Positions 16,341-18,183 of a stretch of 64,000 bases of DNA are shown here, piece by piece. Under the pieces are notes generated by a model that was not told the DNA's origin, ran no database searches, and worked only from the letters and a program-made list of their open reading frames with translations. Source of the stretch: Bacteroidota bacterium (lineage in GTDB: Bacteria > Bacteroidota > Bacteroidia > NS11-12g > UBA9320). The stretch is from assembly GCA_016124755.1 (NCBI GenBank), contig WGNA01000007.1:124001-188000 (forward strand), in the 5' to 3' direction. The position numbers were made by a program, and so were the translations under genes. The first letter of the stretch is position 1, and each line of letters opens with the position of its first letter.

Positions 16341-17654
16341 TTAATAAAAGATTCCGGCTATCGTAGCAGTGAGCAAACAGGCAAGGGTTCCTCCCACCAG
16401 AGCGAGAAAACCAAGTTTTGAAAGAGTTGGTTTCTGATTGGGCGCAAGGCTCGCAATTCCTCCAATCTGAATACCGATAGATGCAATGTTGCTGAATCCA
16501 CAAAGTGCATACGTAAGAATAATAATCGTCTTATTTGACAGATCTATCTGCTTTTTTAATTCGGAAAAACTGTTGTAAGCGATAAATTCATTTAGGATGG
16601 TTTTTTCACCCAACAGACTTCCGGCTACCAATAAGTCTTGAGACGGCACACCACAAACCCATGCCAACGGGGCAAACACAACCCCCATTATAGCTTGCAT
16701 CGATAAACCTTTTAATTTCCCTCCTGTGATATTTTCAATCCAGGAATTAATCTGTGTTCTACCACCGATCTGATCATGAAGAACATAGTTGAACATGGCT
16801 ATAAATGCAGTAAATACAAGAAGCATTGCTCCTACATTTATTGCCAGTTTAAGTCCGTCTGATGTTCCGTTTGTGATGGCTTCTAAGAAGTTTGTCCCGA
16901 TTTTTTCTTTGTTAATTTTCATTTCCCGGTTCACCTCACCTGTTTCCGGAACCAACATTTTACTAAAAACCAAAGCTGCCGGTGCAGAAAGTACGCTGGC
17001 GGTTAACAAATGTTTCGCGAACTGTATTTGGGCTAATTTGTCTTCTCCTCCCAACATTCCAATATAACTGGCCAACACTCCGCCGGCGATGGTAGCCATT
17101 CCTCCGCACATAAGTGCCATTATTTCGGATTTCGACATCCCGGCTATATATGGTTTTACAACTAACGGTGCCTCCGTCTGGCCTACAAAAATGTTCGCTG
17201 CTGCAGATAAACTCTCCGCTCCGGAAAGCTTCATTGTCTTATTCATAATCCAGGCAATGCCGTACACTACCTTTTGCATTACTCCGAGGTAATACAACAA
17301 ACTGGTAAAAGCAGAGAAAAATACGATTGTGGGTAATACCTGAAACGCGAAGAGAAACCCAAAGCTGTTCACATCGAGCAATCCTTCAAACAACATTTTG
17401 GAACCTTCCATGGTAAATGAAGTGACTTTTGTAAAAGCGCGGGCACAGAAATCCAGCACTGTGCTAATCACTGGAACATAAAATACCAGAATTGCAAATA
17501 GAATTTGAATAAGAACTCCGGTTCCAACCAATGTCCAGTTTATGTGTTTCCGGTCACGGCTCATCAACCACGCTATCAGCAGTAGTAAAGCCATCCCAAG
17601 AACTCCGCGTAACAATCCGGTTATATCCGGATTGAGTTCAATTGTTTCTTGCAT
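16341..17654 (-). CDS. Concentrative nucleoside transporter, NupC (CNT) family
   Basis: This inner-membrane cation:nucleoside symporter imports nucleosides for salvage. The protein is about 437 aa with CNT hallmarks: an N-terminal membrane-helix block, GQTEAPLVVKPYIAGMSKSEIMALMCGGMATIAGGVLASY, SAPAALVFSKMLVPETGE, and a C-terminal NEFIAYNSF...ALCGFSNIASIGIQIGG block. The start at ATG 17654 (MQETIELNPDITG) is preferred to the upstream TTG/ATG codons. A near-consensus -7 (TATTTTG, minus strand, at about 17668-17674) lies just before it, so the extension would not be transcribed. It is followed by the aminotransferase gene with a 2-nt gap. Confidence 0.92.
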   Translation of the reverse strand: MQETIELNPDITGLLRGVLGMALLLLIAWLMSRDRKHINWTLVGTGVLIQILFAILVFYVPVISTVLDFCARAFTKVTSFTMEGSKMLFEGLLDVNSFGFLFAFQVLPTIVFFSAFTSLLYYLGVMQKVVYGIAWIMNKTMKLSGAESLSAAANIFVGQTEAPLVVKPYIAGMSKSEIMALMCGGMATIAGGVLASYIGMLGGEDKLAQIQFAKHLLTASVLSAPAALVFSKMLVPETGEVNREMKINKEKIGTNFLEAITNGTSDGLKLAINVGAMLLVFTAFIAMFNYVLHDQIGGRTQINSWIENITGGKLKGLSMQAIMGVVFAPLAWVCGVPSQDLLVAGSLLGEKTILNEFIAYNSFSELKKQIDLSNKTIIILTYALCGFSNIASIGIQIGGIASLAPNQKPTLSKLGFLALVGGTLACLLTATIAGIFY

Positions 17655-17884
17655 CGTTTTGTTGGGGCAAAATAATGGTTTTGAAATCAGTCGCAGAAGA
17701 GGAACCAGAATTCGTGTCATCGACAAATGTCACAAAAGATCAATTGTATTCCACATATTAGATTATAATCCCATAATGATTCTATTTTTAAGAAGTCTTT
17801 CTTTGGCACACATACCCACGAAACACACTTAATGCACTGATATTAAATTTTTTACACAAATATTCAGGTAGCATTCACCCCTCG

Positions 17885-17900
17885 TGGCACATAGGTTGAA
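17885..17900 (+). promoter_or_regulatory. Sigma-54-like TGGCACA element before the orphan transcript
   Basis: TGGCACATAGGTTGAA fits TGGCAC-N5-TTGC except for A at the last -12 position. It is identical at 15 of 16 bases to the element upstream of lon. If it is a promoter, transcription would start near 17910. Confidence 0.4.
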
Positions 17901-17909
17901 TTATATCTG

Positions 17910-18160
17910 GCACAAAACGACGAACAAAACTTACTGAGACTCAGAATAAAGAAATTGATACTTACACTAGACTACTACTTACTATTACTACTACTTACTT
18001 ATTTGTACCTACTTATTACTACTATTAATTGTTAACCATTTGATTACTACATGCTACTGATGATTATGGGCCGTGAGGCCTCCCATCTGAATCTACTATT
18101 TTTCATGTCTTTCTACTGAAGAGTTAACGGGGGATCTGCGAAGGTCCCCCGTTTTATTTA
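17910..18160 (+). ncRNA. Candidate orphan small RNA or short-peptide transcript
   Basis: About 250 nt lie between a sigma-54-like element and a strong intrinsic terminator, with no normal gene. The 5' part contains the palindrome CTGAGACTCAG. A G-poor stretch of about 100 nt follows, with repeated ACTTACT/ACTACT units that should be unstructured. A compact hairpin comes next (ATGGG...CCCAT enclosing CC-GTGA-GG), then the terminator. Two tiny reading frames are possible. One is TTG 17955-18035, with 11 Leu among 26 codons. The other is ATG 18051-18119 (MLLMIMGREASHLNLLFFMS, then FY). The second ends 6 nt before the terminator stem. It could be a regulatory sRNA, a tiny-peptide mRNA, or an attenuator leader now detached from its operon. 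It is not recognisably 6S, SRP or tmRNA. Confidence 0.4.
18126..18160 (+). terminator. Intrinsic terminator before icmF
   Basis: A 9-bp perfect stem (AACGGGGGA / TCCCCCGTT) with a 10-nt loop is followed by TTTTATTTA. No annotated plus-strand gene precedes it, so it implies a short transcript ending here. Confidence 0.85.
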
Positions 18161-18175
18161 GGCCGGTTTTCACCC

Positions 18176-18183
18176 TATCTTTG
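18176..18183 (+). promoter_or_regulatory. Candidate -7 element for icmF
   Basis: TATCTTTG is an exact TAnnTTTG match 17 bp before the icmF ATG. The T-tract of the preceding terminator (TTTTA at 18152-18156) sits at -33 distance (19 nt). Confidence 0.6.

Follow-up and report, generated by a model that had tools for sequence, protein, structure and literature searches.

The Qrr small RNAs of Vibrio are encoded in several sigma-54-dependent copies that share a common conserved core and pair with mRNAs through Hfq. In Pseudomonas and Azotobacter, the RpoN-dependent RNAs CrcZ and CrcY are activated by enhancer-binding proteins and titrate a translational repressor (PMC4063720, PMC6292655). The FopS small RNAs of Bacteroides, described together with RbpB, are transcribed from sigma-ABfr promoters and expose a base-pairing seed, R1 (PMC11697453), and the experimentally mapped sigma-54 regulon of Flavobacterium psychrophilum includes, next to Lon, DnaK, gliding and exported proteins, a putative RNA, Rfp36 (PMC9723704). 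Here we analyse a window of 64,000 nucleotides from a Bacteroidota bacterium (genome G000, contig WGNA01000007.1), whose interval 17885-18160, directly before icmF, is very probably, as judged from comparative sequence analysis, a small non-coding RNA gene in its own right, dependent on sigma-54, confined to one family and present in more than one copy in a sister genus.

The locus resembles Qrr in copy number, promoter and common core, but differs from it in the absence of Hfq, for which 0 of 39 relatives scored positive. With CrcZ/CrcY it shares the promoter class, probable activation by an enhancer-binding protein, the many unstructured repeats of a short motif and the presence of more than one gene; however, the repeats here are UACU/ACUACUU rather than the A-rich Hfq sites found there (PMC4063720, PMC6292655). 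The different repeats, together with the lack of Hfq in the 39 relatives, rule out membership in the CrcZ family, and we retain CrcZ as an analogy. Multiple copies, a single-stranded 5′ part, a terminator and an RRM-using phylum are all shared with FopS (PMC11697453), but the promoter is of the sigma-54 and not the sigma-ABfr type and the RNA has no Rfam match. Rfp36 is likewise a sigma-54-driven putative regulatory RNA in Bacteroidota (PMC9723704); homology with it, on a comparison by description, is unlikely, and no homologue from outside the family was recovered among 395 genomes of the class. We therefore class the RNA as a new family within an established type of small RNA, in which the decoy mechanism proposed below, if it holds, would be the novel part.

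The features of the region are collected in Table 1. The true start of the divergent transporter-like gene probably lies near 17654. As claimed by a sequence-only reading of the window, the terminator has no ordinary plus-strand gene upstream of it, with no open reading frame of at least 50 aa from 17833 to the icmF start, and icmF carries its own -7 element after the terminator, TAnnTTTG being the flavobacterial sigma-A consensus (PMC9723704). The terminator itself (AACGGGGGATCTGCGAAGGTCCCCCGTT followed by TTATTT at 18126-18153, with 12 pairs and a T run) is the sole plus-strand candidate within 16.5-19.5 kb. The sigma-54-like site, the G-poor triplet-repeat-like tract and the compact hairpin of the same reading are equally borne out in this sequence. 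The pattern TGGCAYN5TTGMA occurs at five sites in the 4.05-Mb genome versus two with the reversed control, and the site before the RNA carries TTGA as its -12 element and not the consensus TTGC, with the exact consensus present in relatives; where this genome has an upstream half site, G014 has a complete second sigma-54 site. G content is 7.7% across the first 130 nt of the predicted RNA, TACT occurs 15 times in its body versus 6.8 expected from dinucleotide shuffles, and the UACU core is predicted to be mostly unpaired.

Table 1. Genes and predicted elements around the small RNA locus (window positions)
Feature	Position	Strand	Remarks
Nucleoside-transporter-like gene	16341-17726	minus	divergent, on the far side of the region from icmF
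Putative activator (bEBP) sites	17770-17794	plus	CCCATAATGATTC (17770-17782) at -115 relative to the -24 box; palindrome TTCTATTTTTAAGAA
Upstream -24-like half site	17804-17809	plus	TGGCAC, no -12 element; from sequence
Sigma-54 promoter (predicted)	17885-17899	plus	-24 TGGCAC, N5 = ATAGG, -12 TTGA
Small RNA gene (predicted)	17910-18160	plus	about 250 nt; start inferred at 12 nt past the -12 G; promoter-to-terminator unit conserved, duplicated in relatives
G-poor UACU-repeat core	~17955-18035	plus	rich in TACT/ACTAC
Compact hairpin	18068-18081	plus	GGGCC-GTGA-GGCCT; centroid fold
Intrinsic terminator of small RNA	18126-18160	plus	stem conserved in relatives with compensatory changes
icmF -7 box	18176-18183	plus	TATCTTTG; from sequence; outside the RNA gene
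icmF	start 18200	plus	next gene after the terminator

We located icmF orthologues in 39 relatives and read their upstream regions. Promoter, core and terminator precede icmF in 10 of the 38 genomes of this Bacteroidia family, nine of them detected by a sequence-profile model and G001 by inspection; the relatives concerned are G002, G014, G009, G017 and G020 (genus g3), G004 (g5), G001 (g2), and G003 and G010 (g4). Across the 38 family genomes, a sequence-only profile recovers the loci in front of icmF, except that of G001, at E < 1e-13 and nothing comparable elsewhere save additional copies of the unit. With a refined profile, strong matches among the 395 class genomes are confined to this family; two matches from outside it, near E 1e-3, were discarded on inspection as lacking the sigma-54/terminator unit. 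A regular-expression scan of the 600 nt upstream of 80 named icmF loci from other Bacteroidota found no sigma-54/ACT-tract layout.

The sigma-54 promoter aligns in all 16 copies, several of which carry the exact TGGCAC-N5-TTGC, and rpoN (PF04552) is present in 37 of the 39 relatives, this genome included. Among the eleven g3 copies, a 42-nt core, TTTGATAAATACTAYACTACACTACTTATTACTTACTACTTG, is 90% conserved, compared with 85% for the promoter, 69% between core and terminator and 63% for the 5′ part; most copies contain more TACT and ACTAC/ACTTAC words than their dinucleotide shuffles. The predicted terminator has nine consensus pairs, and at four of these one or more copies carry changes in both partners. 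Conservation among relatives, which the sequence-only reading had set as a check, thus extends to the terminator, but only in part to the compact hairpin: several g3 copies form a similar CCCGTGAGGG hairpin and other copies differ. Its proposed covariance search returned nothing above the Rfam gathering score, and gathering and permissive thresholds alike gave only chance matches near the locus (BTnc231, E 0.36). Because the fold of the single sequence is no better than that of shuffles (z -0.86), structure alone would be insufficient to flag the locus, which conservation does flag. The same unremarkable fold is what would be expected if an orphan terminator happened to lie beside a promoter-like string and the DNA between them encoded no functional RNA, an explanation that is contradicted by the conservation, the duplication and the compensatory changes and that we regard as very improbable.

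The unit is present in two copies each in G002, G014, G017 and G020 and in three in G009, every copy having a promoter and a terminator of its own. In G002, G014, G017 and G009 the copies are complete, comprising sigma-54 promoter, core, hairpin and terminator, and are spaced 390-520 nt from one another; the second copy of G020 lies on a separate short contig, and the repeat of copy G002a is expanded internally. This arrangement bears on the possibility that the element belongs to icmF as its 5′ leader or as an attenuator, sensing for instance branched-chain amino acids. The nearest unit always directly adjoins icmF and its tract could be read as Leu-rich codons, but the -7 box of icmF is placed after the terminator, the unit is repeated two or three times with every copy closed by a terminator, and the tract, poor in G, has nothing that could pair with the GC-rich terminator stem as an antiterminator; nor was the layout detected at the 80 other Bacteroidota icmF loci or in most family members. 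An icmF leader is therefore highly improbable, and the claim of a small RNA gene in its place is upheld by the conserved promoter, tract and terminator and by the duplication of the unit in relatives.

The copies also speak to the tiny-peptide gene that had been offered as an alternative. A leader peptide could start at a conserved NTG (TTG at 17955 here) and run across the ACT tract, with a start position that varies between TTG here, ATG in G003 and GTG in G010, and its hypothetical product would be rich in Leu, Thr, Ile and Tyr, as in LINTTLHYLLLTT. However, indels of 5 and 14 nt separate paralogues and orthologues within the tract and yield LINTTLLITYYLKII or a 23-aa form without compensation, the possible peptide lengths span 10-32 aa, and a 22-aa ATG frame at 18051 is missing from the other copies. 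Since the 5- and 14-nt indels shift the frame, we consider a peptide unlikely and the alternative largely disposed of, though somewhat less decisively than the icmF leader.

For the non-coding RNA, upstream sequences suggest a dedicated activator. Across copies, a CCCATTATG-like box recurs at about -115, with a paired site in most copies at near-fixed position: CCCATWATG is found at -114/-115 in G009b, G009c, G017a, G017b and G014b, and CCCAATATG in G002b, usually accompanied by a second, GTCTCATTTTGA-like box at -134/-137 (about -136). In this genome the -115 box is clear and the -136 box weak. In 800 kb of G017 there is a single dual site, the one preceding the small RNA, and the sampled G000 sequence contains none; because the motif comes from these very copies, its count against shuffles is circular, but its fixed position and near-uniqueness are not.

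Other sigma-54 sites of this genome include a promoter, TGGCACAGAGGTTGAA, at 11675-11660 of the window on the minus strand, about 60 nt upstream of the lon start, which matches the sigma-54 control of lon in F. psychrophilum, and sigma-54-like sites that precede dnaK and genes for thioredoxin-like and exported proteins (G000 C7, C1, C4 and C6). The apparent sigma-54 regulon is one of proteostasis and envelope functions, in agreement with the proteostasis, envelope and gliding regulon of F. psychrophilum (PMC9723704). Two related exported proteins (VDIKIPEVAILDLEAA / VQIDIPEVAIMDLEAA) are encoded at L169 (G000:C7) and at G000:C6 near 52689; both genes have ACTACTA leaders and one has a sigma-54 promoter.

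Sequences resembling the core are also found in mRNA leaders. Elsewhere in this genome the tract is matched best by a gene leader, GACTACTACTTACTACT-ATG, in sense orientation. Leader statistics for G000 were compiled from 1.65 Mb of the 4.05 Mb, in two separate samples, with genes taken as mechanically predicted long open reading frames whose starts are approximate. On merged sites, the valid figures here given that earlier counts of overlapping words overstate significance, sense (ACT)n falls in leaders at 7 of 33 sites versus 2.7% expected (p 2e-5). The enrichment is confined to the sense strand (a single leader site on the opposite strand), is seen in both sample halves and makes (ACT)n the most leader-enriched trinucleotide class in G000. 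The UACUACU words sit just upstream of start codons, and the genes concerned mostly encode exported or membrane proteins (an outer-membrane protein, a PKD-type exported protein, a lipoprotein and others).

Together, these observations would fit a model in which a dedicated enhancer-binding activator, with sites near -136 and -115, turns on the RNA, probably alongside the sigma-54 genes for proteostasis and envelope stress. The resulting transcript, whose long UACU-repeat body lacks structure and is followed by a terminator, would mimic the UACUACU elements of mRNA 5′ leaders, here mostly those of exported and membrane-protein genes, and could thereby titrate a factor that binds such leaders, most likely an RRM-type RNA-binding protein. 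An RRM-type protein is favoured as the bound factor because Hfq is absent. Every one of the seven genomes with the long UACU form encodes RRM proteins, two each, and none of the three with the shortened form does (G001, G003 and G010, where the copies are short and most ACTAC words are gone); this association is suggestive, drawn as it is from few independent genera and with other genera having RRM proteins without the RNA.

Further comparisons temper the model. Leaders show no UACUACU enrichment in the 800 kb analysed from G017, a two-copy relative; a cruder test across 16 genomes found no excess of UACUACU within 25 nt of ATGAA over a reversed control; and the 15 12-mer matches between tract and leaders in G000 are not clearly above the 10 of a reversed-sequence control. 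The leaders of the RRM genes contain no UACUACU, and a literature search for UACUACU-binding proteins found none. The leader enrichment of G000, which was not replicated in G017, suggests that the RNA may act as a decoy in the manner of CrcZ. Because the G017 test was negative and the 12-mer matching near control, we hold the decoy role only tentatively and deem an RRM partner doubtful. The best overall explanation, a small RNA gene that acts as a decoy, comes close to an even chance without reaching it; its most elaborate form, a tandemly amplified, sigma-54-induced decoy that titrates an RRM protein, or an opposing AGUAGU small RNA, away from the UACUACU elements of envelope-protein mRNA leaders, is rather unlikely. 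If true, the RNA would be the equivalent, in bacteria without Hfq, of CrcZ or of the small RNAs of the enterobacterial envelope-stress response. Little is understood of post-transcriptional control in Bacteroidota that lack Hfq, or of the ligands of their RRM proteins; a conserved, duplicated repeat RNA under a stress-type sigma factor, in genomes that retain RRM proteins, offers a concrete candidate ligand that can be tested, together with a candidate leader element.

Alternatively, the ACUACUU/ACUUACU core could serve as a repeated seed through which the RNA pairs, without Hfq, with mRNAs that contain AGUAGU or with a second small RNA. As is the case for seeds, the core is near-identical in paralogues and orthologues, and a potential partner exists in L170, whose AGUAGUAGUAA-type stretches are complementary to this RNA, with ten shared 8-mers versus 1.2-2.5 in shuffles; L170 is in addition antisense to an outer-membrane-protein leader, perfectly over 20 nt. 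On the other hand, AGTAGT-type sites show no leader enrichment, the tract's closest match elsewhere in the genome has the sense and not the antisense orientation of a leader, and a DNA-level search of the other family genomes did not find L170, whereas this RNA is conserved. We accordingly judge base pairing to be rather unlikely, about on a par with the RRM partner. The AGUAGU stretches of L170 could pair with this RNA, which would then be a sponge for L170; because L170 was not found in relatives, such a partnership would be at most a feature of this genome.

L170 itself (L170:1501-1779, G000:C24:49624 onwards) is a second predicted sigma-54 orphan transcript with a strong terminator, for which a homologue search across the family gave only weak fragments. 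It carries CAGTAGTAGTAAAGGGGCAG, which over 20 nt is a perfect antisense match to the leader of the outer-membrane-protein gene at G000:C4 (L184 47-979, minus strand), and is, by its sequence, a candidate sigma-54 small RNA against an outer-membrane protein. Finally, in G010 a cobalamin riboswitch (Rfam RF00174; L030:4950-5153) lies about 70 nt past the end of icmF.
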